A stretch of DNA of 64,000 bases, from contig NZ_JANYEK010000079.1 of NCBI RefSeq assembly GCF_025363195.1, positions 31,999-95,998 on the forward strand, read 5' to 3'. Below are positions 31,697 through 56,840 of the stretch, one piece after another. This stretch comes from Sphingomonas sp. (GTDB lineage: Bacteria; Pseudomonadota; Alphaproteobacteria; Sphingomonadales; Sphingomonadaceae). Numbering within the stretch: the stretch's first letter is position 1; every line of letters begins with the position of its first letter. Both the position numbers and the translations under genes were made by a program. The notes beneath the pieces are model-generated. The model had not been told where the DNA came from. It made no database searches and saw only the letters and a list, made by a program, of their open reading frames with translations.

Positions 31697-32434
31697 TCAG
31701 TCGATCGCGACGATCAGCCCGTCGCGCAACCAGGTGCCGAGGATCGCGCCGATCTCCGACGGATCGCTGTCGTGAACGTGCCGCGCGAGCGTGCAGGTCG
31801 CGGCGAAACTCGCGCCGGACAGGGTCGCGGTCAGCGCCGTCAGTTCGACCGGTTCGGTGGTGCGAAAGCTGGGCGACAGCCCGTCGCGCCATACCAACAG
31901 GCCTGCGCGTGGCATGATTTCGGGCGGCGGAGGCATGTCCCCTGTCGCCAGCGCGTTCCAGATCGCGACCGCATTGGTGCGCACGTCCCGTGCCGCGACG
32001 TGCGGGGCGAGGACGATCGTCGCCGTTTCCCAATCGACCTCGGCCAGTCTGGCGGGATCGATCGCGGGCGTATCGGCGACGGCGAAGGCTTGACGCAACG
32101 CCCGATCGAGCCACGCCAGCTCGACGACTTCCAGATCGTCGGCATGGCGCTCCGCAAACGCTTCGGCGAAGTCCGGGCCATACGCCGCCAGCGTCCAGCT
32201 GCTCGGCGGATGCTGGTCGATATAGGCGCCCGCCGCGGCCTCGAACGCCTCCTCGCCAAGCCACAAAGCGGTTTTCTCATAGGGGTCGCGCAGGCAATCA
32301 ATCAGCGTGGCGCGGTAGGCGTGGGCATAAACCGGCAGGCCGCGTCGGGAGGCCTCGGGTACATGCCGCGCCACCGCAACGTCGCCGCGCAGGATGTGGG
32401 CGCGAAAGTCGCGTTGCAGGTCGATCAGGCTCAC
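31697..32434 (-). CDS. bufC2: BufC-type partner protein (DUF2063), bufferin-2 locus
   Basis: 245 aa from GTG 32434, overlapping the bufB2 stop as GTGA; the long track ORF is a shadow of bufB2 joined to it. The N-terminus VSLIDLQRDFRAHILRGD and the following VYAHAYRATLIDCLRDPYEKTALWLGEEAF are typical of DUF2063 proteins, which bind RiPP precursors and pass them to the DUF692 oxidase. The C-terminal half is a less conserved substrate-specificity domain. It should present BufA2 to BufB2. Confidence 0.87.
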   Translation of the reverse strand: MSLIDLQRDFRAHILRGDVAVARHVPEASRRGLPVYAHAYRATLIDCLRDPYEKTALWLGEEAFEAAAGAYIDQHPPSSWTLAAYGPDFAEAFAERHADDLEVVELAWLDRALRQAFAVADTPAIDPARLAEVDWETATIVLAPHVAARDVRTNAVAIWNALATGDMPPPPEIMPRAGLLVWRDGLSPSFRTTEPVELTALTATLSGASFAATCTLARHVHDSDPSEIGAILGTWLRDGLIVAID

Positions 32435-33276
32435 GCCGCCGCCCTCAAATGGGGTGCGGCGATCGCGCGGGCCATGTCGAGTTCGCCGAGCAATACCTCC
32501 AGCGCAGGAATATCGTCGTCGCGTTCGATCATCGTCGCGACATCGCCGAGCCGTTCGACCGCCGCGCGATAGAGTGCCCAGACACCGTCCGGCACGGGAT
32601 GGTCGTGCGTGTCGATCAGCAAGCCGTCGCGCCCCTGGCTGTGCCCGGCGAGATGGACCTGCCGCACGCGATCGGCGGGAATGGCGTCGAGATATTGGAT
32701 CGCGTCGAAGTCGTGATTCTTCGCGCTGACGAACACGTTGTTGACGTCGAGCAGCAGATAGCAGCCGGTGCGGCGAGACATCTCGGCGATGAAATCCCAT
32801 TCGCCATACGCCGCGTCGGCGAACTCGACATAACTGGAGGGGTTTTCCAGCAGCATCGCCCGGCCCAGCATTTCCTGTGCGCGATCGATATTGTCGCACA
32901 CCAGATCCAGCGCCTCGCGCGTGTAGGGCAACGGCAGCAAATCGTGGCTGTTGAAGCCCTCAATTCCGGTCCAGCTCAGATGATCGGAAACCCATATCGG
33001 CTCGATCCGGTCGGCTAGCATCCGCAGGCGGCGTAGATAGTCCGGGTTGAGGCCGTCGGCCGAACCGATCGACATCGAAACGCCGTGCAGGGCGACGGGG
33101 TAATGCGCGCGCACGCGCGCCAGCACGTCGAGCGGGCGGCCGCCGTCGACCATGAAATTCTCGGAAATCACCTCGACGAAATCCACGTCCACATCGCCGT
33201 CCAGAAAGGCGGGATAATGTGGTGGGCGCATGCCGAGCCCGAAGGCGCGGGTCGGAGGCAGATCAGGGTAGGTCAT
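32431..33276 (-). CDS. bufB2: MNIO family (DUF692) RiPP-modifying oxidase, bufferin-2 locus
   Basis: 281 aa from ATG 33276. A TIM-barrel multinuclear non-haem iron oxidase: LHGVSMSIGS, VSDHLSW, LENPSSYV, LLLDVNNVFVSAKNH, VHLAGHSQG, IDTHDHPVPDGVWALY and IERDDDIPAL supply the conserved His/Asp/Glu iron ligands. Characterised BufB enzymes convert precursor cysteines to thio-oxazole-type heterocycles. It lies 62 bp after bufA2, separated by a strong hairpin, and is coupled to bufC2. Confidence 0.92.
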   Translation of the reverse strand: MTYPDLPPTRAFGLGMRPPHYPAFLDGDVDVDFVEVISENFMVDGGRPLDVLARVRAHYPVALHGVSMSIGSADGLNPDYLRRLRMLADRIEPIWVSDHLSWTGIEGFNSHDLLPLPYTREALDLVCDNIDRAQEMLGRAMLLENPSSYVEFADAAYGEWDFIAEMSRRTGCYLLLDVNNVFVSAKNHDFDAIQYLDAIPADRVRQVHLAGHSQGRDGLLIDTHDHPVPDGVWALYRAAVERLGDVATMIERDDDIPALEVLLGELDMARAIAAPHLRAAA

Positions 33277-33304
33277 CGCAACAGATCCTCGTCGCGGGAG
33301 GTAT

Positions 33305-33330
33305 CCCCGGATGCCGCGAAGCATCCGGGG
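33305..33330 (-). terminator. Perfect hairpin between bufA2 and bufB2 (attenuator/stabiliser)
   Basis: Stem CCCCGGATGC / GCATCCGGGG (10 bp, perfect) with loop CGCGAA, starting 8 bp after the bufA2 stop. There is no T-run, so it is more likely a partial terminator or a 3' mRNA-stabilising structure that lets the precursor be made in excess over its modifying enzymes. Confidence 0.65.
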
Positions 33331-33338
33331 CGTAGGTC

Positions 33339-33602
33339 TTACTTCTCGGTCAGCGTGCCGCCGGCCTTGGCGCAGGCCTTGGTCGACAGTGCCTTGAAGC
33401 CCTGGCCCTTGCACTCGTTCTGGCCCTTGCATTCATGGGTGCCGCTCTTGCAGTCGGACGTGCCCTTGCAGCTGTTGACGCCGTAGCAATGGACGACCGT
33501 GCCAGCCTTTGCGGCATTGGCGGGCGTTACGACGGCAGCACCGGCAACGGCGATGACAGCGGCGGCGGTGGCGAAGTTGATGGTTTTCGACAGGGTCGTC
33601 AT
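33339..33602 (-). CDS. bufA2: Bufferin-type RiPP precursor, 6-Cys class
   Basis: 87 aa from ATG 33602, with AGGAG upstream; the track start at 33710 crosses the promoter. The N-terminus is a signal peptide (MTTLSKTINFATAAAVIAV...VTPANA) with cleavage before AKAG. The mature ~55 residues carry six Cys in a repeating pattern: CYGVNSC, GTSDC, GTHEC, GQNEC and TKAC near the end. This matches the non-DUF2282 bufferin-2 class as I recall it. BufB-type oxidases modify central cysteines, giving a periplasmic copper-binding peptide. A perfect SigF-type promoter lies at 33651-33676. Confidence 0.87.
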   Translation of the reverse strand: MTTLSKTINFATAAAVIAVAGAAVVTPANAAKAGTVVHCYGVNSCKGTSDCKSGTHECKGQNECKGQGFKALSTKACAKAGGTLTEK

Positions 33603-34799: not shown

Positions 34800-35066
34800 A
34801 TGACCACCCGTATTTCGGCCGCACTCGCGGCGGTCCTGGTTACCTCGCTCACCGCCGGTGCCGCGACCGCACAGGCCGCCAAGCCGATGGAAAAATGCTT
34901 CGGCGTATCCAAGGCGGGCAAGAACGATTGCAAGGCCGGCACCGGCACCAGCTGCGCGGGCACGTCCAGGATCGATTACCAGAAGAACGCCTGGAAGCTC
35001 GTTCCGGCTGGCACCTGCACCAAGATCAAGACCCCCAAAGGCGCCGGGTCGCTGACCGAGAGCTGA
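34800..35066 (+). CDS. bufA1: Bufferin-type RiPP precursor, DUF2282 (4-Cys class)
   Basis: 88 aa from ATG 34800, with TGGAG 8 nt upstream. The signal peptide [26 protein letters not shown] is followed by the mature peptide with four cysteines in the DUF2282 pattern: [14 protein letters not shown], then TSCAGTS, then [11 protein letters not shown]. This is the classic bufferin-1 precursor signature. The product is expected to be exported and to sequester copper in the periplasm after modification by BufB1/BufC1. First gene of a four-gene plus-strand operon under a SigF-type promoter. Confidence 0.93.
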
Positions 35067-52219: not shown

Positions 52220-52241
52220 TCCGGCTTAACGGTTGAAGACC

Positions 52242-52277
52242 GGCCCTCTCCCACACCGGGAGGGGGCCGTTTCTTGT
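52242..52277 (+). terminator. Rho-independent terminator of rne
   Basis: Stem GGCCCTCTCCC / GGGAGGGGGCC (11 pairs, one G-U) with loop ACACC, followed by GTTTCTTGTTGT. It starts 22 bp after the rne stop. Confidence 0.85.
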
Positions 52278-52818
52278 TGTGACGGAAAGGGGTTTGGCGC
52301 CCGCCTTAGACCAATGTCGGTCGGTAAAACTGCCGGTACATTATCGCTTGAGCCGACATTCGGGCCACCACGCCCGTCCCGTTTTTTCATGTCTGGCGGC
52401 GCAATTTGGGAAAATCCAGCCGGGAACGGATTTCAGAAATACGGCCTTTGCTATAGGCCGCGAGCCTTACCAGCCGGCTTGCCTATTCCAATGGATGCTC
52501 CCGATTGAGGCTGTCTGCTGATCCGGTGGCCGTTTCGACAATCTCGCTCCAAGGGGCGTACTGCCCTCACGACCTCGTTGTTCAGATAGTGGCAGCGACT
52601 AACGGATGATCTGGCGAGATTGAGTATTCCCAATGCACCTGGTCATCTTATCAAACATCAGGATAAGCTGATAAATACTCGGAATTTGAATTAGCAAATA
52701 GATATAGAAACAATTTGTTACAAAAGATAGGTCTATTGCTTTGCCACTAGGCGGCCGCTGTGTCAGCATATCAGTTGCCGTCAAGCCGGCGGCGTTCGCG
52801 TTCTGAAAGGAATGTTTG
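52278..52818. other. Intergenic region after rne, AT-rich in its right half
   Basis: 541 bp with no convincing gene. From about 52600 the DNA is clearly AT-rich (runs such as AATTTGAATTAGCAAATAG), unlike the rest of the window. This marks the left side of the island that holds the next two genes. The promoter of the Cys-rich peptide must lie here. Confidence 0.5.
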
Positions 52819-53022
52819 ATGAAAAAGCTGCTAACAATCCTCTGTGCGGTAGGATCCTTCGGAATTGGCCCGGCAGTTTACGCCCTGCCAGATATCCAGT
52901 CGTCCGACTGTCGCTCCGCAAGCGTTACCGGCATGCGGACGGTATGCGAGGCTTGTGGAATATCTTCATGCTCAGGGTGTGAGATCGTCGGACATACATC
53001 GGACGGGAAACCGGTACTTTAA
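52819..53022 (+). CDS. Small secreted Cys-rich peptide
   Basis: 67 aa from ATG 52819, with GAAAGGA 7 nt upstream (the track uses a TTG one codon earlier). The signal peptide MKKLLTILCAVGSFGIGPAVYA is followed by a ~45-residue mature peptide, which has five cysteines, four of them clustered in VCEACGISSCSGCE. I do not recognise a family. The pattern suggests metal binding, a Cys-modified RiPP precursor, or a disulfide-rich peptide. It sits in AT-rich DNA, 148 bp before an unrecognised gene with a metalloprotease motif. Confidence 0.65.
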   Translation: MKKLLTILCAVGSFGIGPAVYALPDIQSSDCRSASVTGMRTVCEACGISSCSGCEIVGHTSDGKPVL

Positions 53023-53039
53023 ACGTAGGGGCGGGGAAG

Positions 53040-53069
53040 GGCGCGGCGGACGCATCCTCTCCCCGCGCC
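53040..53069 (+). terminator. Possible hairpin after the Cys-rich peptide gene
   Basis: GGCGCGG and CCGCGCC can pair across a 16-nt loop and are followed by GTGTTT. Weak, and only a candidate. Confidence 0.35.
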
Positions 53070-53170
53070 GTGTTTGACTCCCTGCCAAACGGGTTTCGTT
53101 CAGGGGTGCACATCGTACGGTATTTGCGAATGGCTAGGGGTGACTCTAACCAGATGTGTTGGATCAGAAT

Positions 53171-54109
53171 ATGCGCTTTAGTGCTGCTATTGGGCTAATC
53201 CTCTCGGCTTCCGTAACTGCAAATGTGTTTTATTCTCTTTATCCGTGTAATTTCTACAGCTGTAGTCTCGCGGATAACGTTTTTATTCTGTCGAAAGACA
53301 AGGCCAAGCGGGATTTTGCTGCGCGGGCCGTCGTTATGGCTCGGGAGCAATTTGCCCGTCTGTTTACCCCGGCGACGGAAAAGGGGTCGCTCCTGCTGGA
53401 TAAGGATATCAAGCAACCGCCGGTAATCAGAATCCAGTCGTATTGGGTCCTTAGATTCGACCCTTTCAGGCCAAAAAATCTGTCCGACGTCTTATCCGAA
53501 AACCCCCGTACCCAGAGTGTCAAGTTTGTTGGGCCTGAATATGCATCGATCAGAATGGCTGATGATGGCATGACGGGCCCTATTATCGGCAACCGCCTTG
53601 ACGTCACGAAACACGAACTGTGCCACGTATTCTTTTCTTCGTCGATGGATGGCAACAGATTCTCCGATGCGATGGATGAGATCGCCGGAATATCGTGTGA
53701 GTCGGGAAAGTCTCTTGATATCCGTCTGGACAGATTTAAGGCCCTTGCCGCAAGCGGCGTGCAAATGCCGTGGGATAAGTTCCTAGTCATGAGCCATCCC
53801 ATAAAGCGGCGAGACAAGCTGATAGCATTCTTGTCGGACAAGGCGAAGGAATCAGGTACATCCGTCAAGTTTAATGTAGATAACAAAAGCGCGCTGGGTA
53901 AAGAAATTGATCTATTTTATGCACAGTCCGCCGTTTTCGTTTTAACCTCGCAGAAAAAATGCCCGAATCAGCAAGTACTCAGCAAACTGGCTGAAAATTT
54001 GAGCCGAGGGAAAAGCTTCTCCGCCTGGCTTGCCAACAATGGGTTGGCGTGCAGTCCCCGAACCATCGGCGAGTTCAACGTGGCAGTGAACCAGGTTCTT
54101 CAACAATGA
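53171..54109 (+). CDS. Unrecognised protein with HExxH metalloprotease-like motif
   Basis: 312 aa from ATG 53171 (the track adds a TTG start five codons earlier). The N-terminus MRFSAAIGLILSASVTANVFYSLYPC looks like a signal peptide or membrane anchor. I do not recognise the family. In the middle, DVTKHELCHVFFSS contains HELCH, an HExxH zinc-ligand motif, and DAMDEIAGISCES follows about 20 residues later, where a third ligand (Glu) would be expected in a gluzincin. Cysteines (PCNFYSC, SQKKCP, LACSP) are consistent with an exported protein. The gene is less GC-rich than its neighbours and uses AT-ending codons more often, suggesting transfer. It may process the small Cys-rich peptide encoded upstream. 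Confidence 0.65.
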   Translation: MRFSAAIGLILSASVTANVFYSLYPCNFYSCSLADNVFILSKDKAKRDFAARAVVMAREQFARLFTPATEKGSLLLDKDIKQPPVIRIQSYWVLRFDPFRPKNLSDVLSENPRTQSVKFVGPEYASIRMADDGMTGPIIGNRLDVTKHELCHVFFSSSMDGNRFSDAMDEIAGISCESGKSLDIRLDRFKALAASGVQMPWDKFLVMSHPIKRRDKLIAFLSDKAKESGTSVKFNVDNKSALGKEIDLFYAQSAVFVLTSQKKCPNQQVLSKLAENLSRGKSFSAWLANNGLACSPRTIGEFNVAVNQVLQQ

Positions 54110-54155
54110 TGCCAGATGGACCAGGGGCAGGCGACCTCGAGATAAGGGGGGCACG

Positions 54156-56653
54156 ATGGAACCGATGGCCGGGTTGACCGTGATGCTGCTGCTGGGGGCG
54201 GCGGACGTGCAGCGTACGGTGGTACCTTCGGCGACGCCGCGCACGCCATCCGCACAGGCCGATCCCGGTGTGCCGGCGCAGCGCCCTGCCGCCGATCCGG
54301 CCGCGCCAAGGATCGAGTTCCTGGGCAAGGACGGCAAGCCGCTATCCCTGCCGCCCGATGTTCAGCGGCAGCTCGAGGAAGATTTGCGGAAAAGTCCGCC
54401 GCCGGTCGGGGTCGCGCGTTCGCCGGGGGATTTCAGGGCGGGCGACATCCTTGTCACCGCGTTGCGGGGATCGGTGATGTCGGACATTCCGCTGCAACGC
54501 ATTTCGGTCCCTTGGACATCAGGGCGTTCGGCGCCAGCAATGTCGAAGAATTCCTTCAGGCGCTCGGACCGCAACTGAGTAGCAATCGTGGGCGCGAGGA
54601 TCGCGGCCCGGTTACGCTGTTGAATGGCCGGCGGGTATCCGATTTTTCCGAGATCGCGCGTATTCCGACCGAGGCAATCGAACGGACGGAGATCTTTCCC
54701 GAGGAAGTGGCGCTCAAATACGGCTATCGTGCCGATCAGAAATTGGTCAACATCATAACATTTGCGCGATTCAAATCGCGGGTGGGTCAACTCAACTATC
54801 TGTTGCTGGGCGAGGGCGGTCGGGACACGCCGGGCATCATCGCCGATTATTTCGCGATTAGCGGCGATACCAGGTATAGTATCGGCGCGGATTATGATCG
54901 ATCCGGATCGCTGCTGGAAAGCGAGCGAGGCGTCGTGCAGCCATCGGGGACGCCGGATCTGGGTCGTTTTCGCACCTTGCTGCCGGAGGCCCGGCGGCTT
55001 GCCCTCAACGGACTGGTCAGTGGCACCGTGCTGAACGGCGTGTCGTCGACGCTGAATGCGCGGATCGAGGCGGTCGAGACCAACGCCCTCCTGGGTCTGG
55101 GGTTCGCAGGGCCGCTGCTACGTGACAGCGACACCCGCACCGTTGGTGTTGGAACCACGCAATTCGGCCGGATTAGCAAATGGACGTGGGCGGTCACGGG
55201 AGATTACACGCGCATCTCCACCCATGTCCTTACCGATACCGGTATCGCCGGACGCCGCGATGATGCCCGCTCGGTCGACGCGCTTGCGAATGCCGATGTC
55301 GTGCTCGCCGGCGCAGTGCTGGAACTGCCCGCCGGACCTTTGTTCACCAGCGTTCGTGGGGGAATCGACGTTCGTGATTTCACGAGCACAGCGCAGCGCA
55401 GCGGTCTGGCCGAGCGTACGGCCCTGTCACGCGACCGCGGGACTGTTCAGATCAACCTCGACCTGCCGATTCTGGGCAAGAAGGAAGCGCCTTCCCCGCT
55501 CGGCCGGCTGTCGGCGAATGCGAATTTCGCCGTCGAGCGGCTGTCCGACTTCGGTACGCTGCGCACGATCGGCTATGGCGTTTCATGGTCACCGGTCAAT
55601 GCGCTAAACCTGATCGTGTCTGCCACTGGGGAGGAGGCCGCACCAAGGGTCGAACAGCTGGGCGGACCAACGATAGTCACCCCCAATGTGCGCACCTTCG
55701 ACGTCACCCGCCGCGAGGTCGTCGACGTCACGCGCATTTTTGGCGGCAACCCGAACCTTCGTCCCGACGACCGTCATGTCGTCAAAATCGGGCTCAACGC
55801 GCAGCCGCTGTCGGCAACGGATCTCGTCTTAAGCATCGATTATGTCTCGACCCGGATCGATAATCCGATCGCGCCTTTTCCCATCCTGACACCAGAAATC
55901 GAGGCTGCGTTTCCCGACCGGTTCACGCGTGGAGCCAACGGCCGCTTGCTGGAGATCAACGACCGGCCGCTCAACTTCGCGCGTTCCCAACAGCAGCAGC
56001 TACGCCTAGGCATCAGCTTCACCCGGCCGCTCGGGCCGTTGCCGCTGGAAACGCAGAGCGCGGGACGCGTGTTCGCGAGCGAGGCTGACGTGCGTAGGGC
56101 CTACCCGGGCGCACGCGTCTTTGTCGGTGCGCCCGGAAGCCCACTCGCGCGTCGGGCCGAAAACGTGTCGAGCCGACTGTTTGCGAGCCTGTATCATAAT
56201 CTGGTTCTGGAAGATTCGATCGTGACTCGCGAAAGCGGGCCTATCCTTAATCTGCTTGATGGCGATGCAATTGATTTCCGTGGCGGCCGACCGCAGCATG
56301 AGATTGAGTTGCAAGCCGGGGCCTTCAAGCGTGGCCTAGGTATAAAGGTCACCGCCAATTGGCGGAGTGGAACCCGTGTCGACGATCTGGGGAATGTCGC
56401 CGGCAACCTGCACTTCGAAAGCCTAGCGACGGTCAACATCAACCTGTTCGCCAATCTCGCCGAACGCTTCGCCGGAGGTGCAGCATCGGCGTGGTGGTCC
56501 AAGGGTGCCCGCGCGACACTGGGGATCAGCAACCTGTTCAATGCCCGGCCACAGGTCCACGATGATACTGGCACAACCCCGCTTAGCTATCAGCCAGCCT
56601 ATCTTGATCCACTCGGCCGATCCATTTTGTTCAGTCTTCGCAAAGTTTTTTGA
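54156..56653 (+). pseudogene. TonB-receptor-like outer membrane protein, frameshifted
   Basis: The first frame (54156 to about 54509) gives a hydrophobic N-terminus (MAGLTVMLLLGAADVQ), a Pro-rich linker and GDFRAGDILVTALRGSVMSDIPLQRISV. The rest lies one frame away: LDIRAFGASNVEEFLQALGPQ, PVTLLNGRRVSDFSEIARIPTEAIERTEIF, then a long barrel ending SILFSLRKVF. One base is missing in the C run at 54509-54511 (GGTCCCTTGG). The combined protein would be about 830 aa, of the TonB-receptor-like family (small plug, no classical TonB box seen) known in sphingomonads. Coding quality is good on both sides, so the break is recent or a sequencing error. Confidence 0.85.
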
Positions 56654-56840
56654 GGAGATACCAGCGCTCGGTGTCGTGATCGTCGCCCCGATGGTCACCG
56701 AACGAGCCTAAGCCGGAATCATGCCGCGCGCCAAACCCATCCAGCGCCTCACCATATTCAACATTCATCCTCCCTCTCGCCCTTCACCCGGCATTCAGCG
56801 GCCTGGCGCCACGTCGGCTGGCGATGCGATTGCCTCCGGA

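Follow-up and report, generated by a model that had tools for sequence, protein, structure and literature searches.

An Exported Peptide, a Gluzincin-Like Protein and a TonB-Plug Protein in a Rare Sphingomonas Operon: A Possible Self-Made Peptide Loop

Introduction

What do two small neighboring genes of no recognizable family do in an AT-rich island behind rne? The initial annotation of the 64-kb stretch of DNA analyzed here (the window), which comes from a draft genome of sphingomonad-like character (261 contigs, 88% complete), had proposed that they encode a secreted Cys-rich peptide and its dedicated protease, a unit ending at 54110 and perhaps bacteriocin-like or RiPP-like. The two genes are the front of a rare, previously uncharacterized Sphingomonas operon, and no description of this operon turned up in literature searches. 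Our tentative reading, held with somewhat less than even confidence, is that the operon was acquired horizontally and that its peptide, protease and receptor run a self-made exported-peptide loop.

The Locus and Its Insertion between rne and M48

The sharp drop in base composition reported after rne is borne out; GC content falls from 0.70–0.74 in rne to about 0.5 (0.48–0.55) at about 52.25–54.1 kb and returns to 0.6–0.66 downstream, with a 12-bp terminator-like hairpin of rne at 52241–52269. The features of the block are as follows.

52220–56720, no strand assigned: insertion, about 4.5 kb long, separating rne from an M48 peptidase gene
52819–53022, + strand: exported Cys-rich peptide, 67 aa (from the ORF, AAGGA, a signal-like N-terminus and operon position)
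53031–53072, + strand: GC-rich hairpin between the peptide and HELCH genes (by eye and fold)
53171–54109, + strand: exported HELCH protein, 312 aa, a divergent gluzincin-like metallopeptidase (from invariant motifs and an AlphaFold model)
54156–56653, + strand: TBp, a TonB-plug outer-membrane protein, in two frames (54156–54578 and 54512–56653)

The peptide ORF runs from an ATG at 52819 to a stop at 53022, with AAGGA 7 nt ahead of the ATG, and the HELCH ORF from an ATG at 53171 to a stop at 54109; both lie where they had been placed, on the same strand and 148 bp apart. The unit extends past its supposed end, as the TBp gene begins 46 bp after the HELCH ORF on the same strand and belongs to it, such that all three genes are found on the + strand inside the rne-M48 block.

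As rne and M48 are only 22–167 bp apart in the eight relatives with a measurable junction, the block in the window is an insertion. Third-position GC is also low relative to neighboring genes in several related operons, making the AT-rich look a property of the cassette; this low GC3 suggests that the cassette has been horizontally transferred, with which the insertion is also in keeping. A search for flanking repeats as marks of transposition gave chance-level matches only; we record a 14-bp inverted pair (52290/56725) with no claim of transposition. Rfam models had no match over 49–59 kb of the window, nor did a plasmid collection searched with the S. yabuuchiae protease.

The HELCH Protein

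The HELCH protein has a signal-like N-terminus, and searches of Pfam, NCBIfam and PDB sequences gave no confident match, as was also the case for the 67-aa peptide, in agreement with the earlier statement that neither gene could be placed in a family. Homology searching with both proteins was partly productive: a profile recovered HExxH relatives of the HELCH protein from 16 of the 295 genomes of the same genus and from 25 of the 401 at order level, and the peptide is left with no sequence relatives. In an alignment of the window protein with 19 relatives, H148, E149, H152, D169, E170, E177, H209-P210 and Y250 are invariant, and D169-E170 forms a WLDE-type motif downstream of HExxH. Gluzincins have this arrangement of HExxH and a later WLDE-type motif; the Glu of D169-E170 is the putative third zinc ligand, and the suggestion that HELCH and a later Glu make up a zinc-protease site has gained from this conservation. 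From these residues we infer that the protein acts by proteolytic catalysis.

The family appears to be distantly Peptidase_MA/gluzincin-like. PF13485 (Peptidase_MA_2) weakly matched three of 20 family members (best 3.5e-4), leaving the window protein unmatched, and a PDB search with the family profile returned aminopeptidase N at chance level only. The AlphaFold model of the window protein (pLDDT 76) has as its better Foldseek matches mostly M1 enzymes (LTA4 hydrolase, aminopeptidases), at E values above 0.2 that are not significant. In comparison with the Peptidase MA superfamily (PF13485, with its M1 and M61 relatives), the family has in common an HExxH and, further on, a Glu within a [D]WLDE-type motif; some relatives match Pfam weakly, and M1 enzymes are among the best fold matches; however, no family model covers the window protein and the fold matches fall short of significance. 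HELCH is the most divergent member, having a branch of 4.9 with its motif intact and about 20% identity to its own relatives; its branch is too long to be placed in the phylogeny, in which it did not group with the operon-type proteases. Among 401 family-level genomes, no closer relative exceeded about 31% identity over the matched part.

Two kinds of HExxH protein were seen. The first is stand-alone, mostly about 340–430 aa and found beside varied genes; the second is about 290 aa, and its gene either immediately precedes a TBp gene or overlaps it. Several observations concern the stand-alone kind in its own right. In another family of the order (L075, L076, L077, L008) it repeatedly lies beside a convergent gene whose product reads as a helix-loop N-terminus plus EF-hand (SESLEIR...; DTNADAYLTATDA). 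The MAG G290 holds two such genes in tandem (L104/L152; about 4330–6600 in L104), adjoined by a gene for a YchF-like GTPase, which also neighbors the HExxH family in three other genomes.

The TonB-Plug Protein

The window TBp is 49–59% identical to relatives encoded by one ORF, several of which lie directly downstream of an HExxH gene. The Plug domain (PF07715) was matched at E 0.011 in the window TBp and 0.0022 in that of genome G259, both below the curated cut-off, and a TonB-box-like DILVT was found by eye. The gene is an intact single ORF in the compared relatives and is split in the window by a frameshift near 54510, which sits beside a short C run (window 54500–54515); this may be an assembly error or true decay. 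In a TBp tree, the window protein lies inside a well-supported clade composed of operon-type TBp and TBp encoded beside a divergent response regulator/histidine kinase pair.

Related Operons and Co-Occurrence

Seven other operons from Sphingomonas and Sphingopyxis encode, in order, an exported peptide, a calycin-fold protein of about 125 aa, an HExxH protein and TBp; the window operon has the peptide, protease and TBp, without the 125-aa gene. They come from S. yabuuchiae NS355 (L145 = G025), Sphingomonas sp. Leaf21 (L143 = G366), G259, G294, S. paucimobilis NBRC 13935 (L146 = G247), G324 and a Sphingopyxis MAG (L147). The HExxH and TBp genes are adjacent or overlapping in all seven. Downstream of the Leaf21 operon (L143 5878–8177, − strand) are two genes with radical-SAM-like Cys motifs, CNLSCSYC and CDQLC; as these are not conserved at the S. 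yabuuchiae operon, they are probably unrelated.

Co-occurrence was assessed with a small-ORF filter (40–110 aa, basic N-terminus, hydrophobic core, cleavage-like site and Shine-Dalgarno-like sequence) applied to 1.3 kb upstream. Exactly one small exported ORF passed in each of the eight operons, window included, versus none in 30 control loci (13 with a stand-alone HExxH gene, 17 with TBp beside a two-component system). The filter passed four other distinct small ORFs on both strands of the 64-kb window, a background of about 0.05 per 1.3-kb strand stretch, so the small exported ORF is above chance here. Because the peptides were already known when the filter was drawn up, and the loci have a common ancestry, the co-occurrence counts as strong evidence but not as independent evidence. 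The pairing of peptide and protease genes foreseen by the initial annotation is thereby upheld, although not as a two-gene unit; TBp is the constant third partner, and the calycin-fold protein is present in seven of the eight operons.

The Exported Peptides

The window peptide reads MKKLLTILCAVGSFGIGPAVYA followed by LPDIQSSDCRSASVTGMRTVCEACGISSCSGCEIVGHTSDGKPVL, the cleavage site between the two being our own reading, and its mature part holds five Cys. A homology search with the 67 aa gave chance-level matches only, most of them containing stops, and the NCBIfam scan gave a weak lipoprotein-signal match only. The peptide has the same position, size and export signal as the product of the first gene of the seven related operons (57–64 aa); it is therefore by position and export signal that it is tied to them, as the mature sequence is not shared. 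Since the mature peptides of the relatives have no or two Cys, the Cys-richness that had been remarked upon is real in the window and peculiar to it. A general Cys-rich metal-binding peptide was considered and dropped, as the Cys are not conserved and the idea rests solely on those of the window peptide.

In pairs of related peptides dN is much lower than dS, and this extends to the mature part (dN 0.03 and dS 0.37 for S. yabuuchiae against Leaf21), which indicates that the relatives' peptides are translated and constrained by purifying selection. One type has no Cys (YDVYEVTD-GGGYY) and another has two (C-V/I-P ... C-F/Y); the G294 peptide is a separate type with two Cys, and the window peptide a type with five. 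The mature peptides of G247 and G324 are 26% identical where TBp is 68% identical, versus 63% and 62%, respectively, for G247 and L147. Peptide type thus appears partly uncoupled from receptor distance, as ligand types are.

Behind the peptide gene, the hairpin at 53031–53072 is weak against shuffled sequences in the window (z −1.6) and in G294 (z −1.1), and strong at the same place in the six other related operons (z −3.3 to −6.6); no terminator-like T run was found at it by scan. It is a possible attenuator or mRNA-stability element and hints that the peptide may be produced in excess over the downstream proteins.

The Calycin-Fold Protein and the Two-Component Version

The protein of about 125 aa is predicted to fold as a barrel of the calycin/lipocalin type (pLDDT 79; best Foldseek E 2.7e-3, probability 1.0), and its family had no confident match in the Pfam and NCBIfam models scanned. 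Its gene is absent from the window operon and had no match elsewhere in the draft genome. Ten further loci (L211–L220) carry the 125-aa gene and TBp facing the same kind of kinase pair, with neither peptide nor protease; they form a conserved four-gene module, in which a response regulator and histidine kinase face the calycin-fold protein and TBp, and which looks like a sensing or uptake system. In G150 (L107), the kinase opposite a stand-alone HExxH gene also has a related sensor region (E 5e-13). The core is thus TBp, often accompanied by the calycin-fold protein; its partners are either a two-component system or an exported peptide plus protease, and the peptide is dispensable in some versions.

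A Proposed Self-Made Peptide Loop

In the proposed loop, the most parsimonious reading, Sec would export the small peptide, as its signal sequence implies; the exported gluzincin-like protein would trim or degrade it in the periplasm; and TBp would recognize the mature peptide, either alone or carrying a ligand, and move it across the outer membrane, with the calycin-fold protein of the relatives as a putative carrier or adaptor. This reading draws on the gene order common to seven other operons, the small exported ORF in eight of eight operons versus none of 30 controls, the low dN of the relatives' peptides, the invariant catalytic motif, the position of the window TBp within a clade holding operon-type TBp, and the partial independence of peptide type from receptor distance. 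Against it stand the mature sequence of the window peptide, which is unlike that of its relatives; the very divergent HELCH, unplaced among operon-type proteases; the frameshifted TBp and the calycin gene missing from the window genome; and the use of TBp and calycin-fold protein with a two-component system, where peptide and protease are lacking. The window copy may be partly dead, unless the TBp frameshift is a sequencing error.

Alternative Explanations and Known Systems

Fus of Pectobacterium and YddB/PqqL of E. coli use an M16 protease on an imported foreign protein (PMC6793856). By analogy, TBp would import a foreign protein or peptide for the gluzincin to cut in the periplasm, the small peptide being an accessory subunit or cofactor of receptor or protease, an account that is unlikely but deserves real weight. 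Published systems of this kind place a TonB-dependent transporter and an exported protein of zinc-metalloprotease type in a single operon (PMC6793856), and TBp with the calycin-fold protein does occur without the peptide. However, the protease here is an unrelated HExxH protein rather than M16 (there was no Pfam match to M16, whose motif is not the HExxH of the window protein), and the operon encodes a peptide of its own, present in all protease-bearing operons, missing where the protease is missing, and changing in type between close receptors, a pattern easier to reconcile with a ligand than with a subunit. That the peptide is a metallophore re-imported by TBp after the protease frees the metal is very improbable; metallophore peptides with TonB receptors are known and the mature window peptide has five Cys, but most related peptides have none or two, so Cys metal binding is not the common function, and there is no metal-linked gene in the operons.

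There is similarly a slim prospect that the small ORF serves as a regulatory leader, such as an arrest peptide that monitors secretion, and acts through the hairpin on the downstream genes. Its export signal and short length would suit this role, as would the hairpin that immediately follows the stop codon in most operons; yet the mature part is conserved within types and wholly different between them, unlike a fixed arrest motif, the window and G294 have a weak hairpin, and the scan gave no terminator-like T run. Decay is a separate matter: it is improbable that the window block is a remnant of genuine mobile-operon genes that no longer work. The TBp frameshift near 54510, the calycin gene not found in the genome and the very long HELCH branch speak for this; against it, neither the peptide ORF nor the HELCH ORF is interrupted, the motif and the export signals are retained, and a single frameshift in a draft so fragmented may be an error.

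Closer to home, lasso-peptide clusters with an isopeptidase and a TonB-dependent receptor (sphingocin, astexins) occur in sphingomonads and Asticcacaulis, for which a siderophore-like loop has been proposed (PMC11006600). They resemble the window operon in that a genome-encoded small peptide is neighbored by an enzyme that cuts peptides and by a TonB receptor, again in this bacterial group, and the proposed loop would run much as theirs does; however, the peptide here carries a Sec signal rather than a leader, the enzyme is an HExxH protein and not an isopeptidase, and the genes form one operon. A Pfam scan of nine neighboring genes (42.6–62.9 kb) found no lasso B (leader protease) or C (cyclase) gene, and neither the window operon nor the scanned neighbors hold modification, immunity or dedicated export genes. 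Membership among lasso peptides, bacteriocins or RiPPs was dropped for lack of a modification gene, and the bacteriocin-like or RiPP-like character first proposed is not sustained, there being no peptide-modification or bacteriocin gene among the scanned neighbors.

Bufferins (BufA) are likewise small Sec-exported Cys-containing peptides; the 67-aa peptide, in contrast, matched no BufA model in the NCBIfam scan, and it is accompanied by a protease and a receptor instead of DUF692/BufB. Elsewhere in the window, a BufA2-type bufferin peptide is encoded at 33339–33602 (− strand; NCBIfam NF050166, E 6e-30) with an apparent downstream partner at 32431–33432 (− strand; DUF692-like start by reading), and a second, divergent Cys-containing exported peptide lies at 34800–35066 (+ strand; NF050166 at E 0.006).

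Significance

The protease, peptide and calycin-fold families all lack a confident match in the Pfam and NCBIfam models scanned. Taken more broadly than the favored loop, the operons could represent a pheromone-like or carrier-peptide loop with exchangeable Sec-exported peptides, a dedicated gluzincin and a cognate TonB-dependent receptor, the calycin-fold protein and receptor having a version that runs on a two-component system; this remains speculative and rather unlikely. If the peptide is the ligand of the receptor, the operon would amount to a compact Gram-negative system, one that exports a plain ribosomal peptide, cuts it and takes it up again through a matched TonB-type receptor. Sphingomonads have many orphan TonB receptors, and such a system would offer a tractable test for the ligands of some of them.
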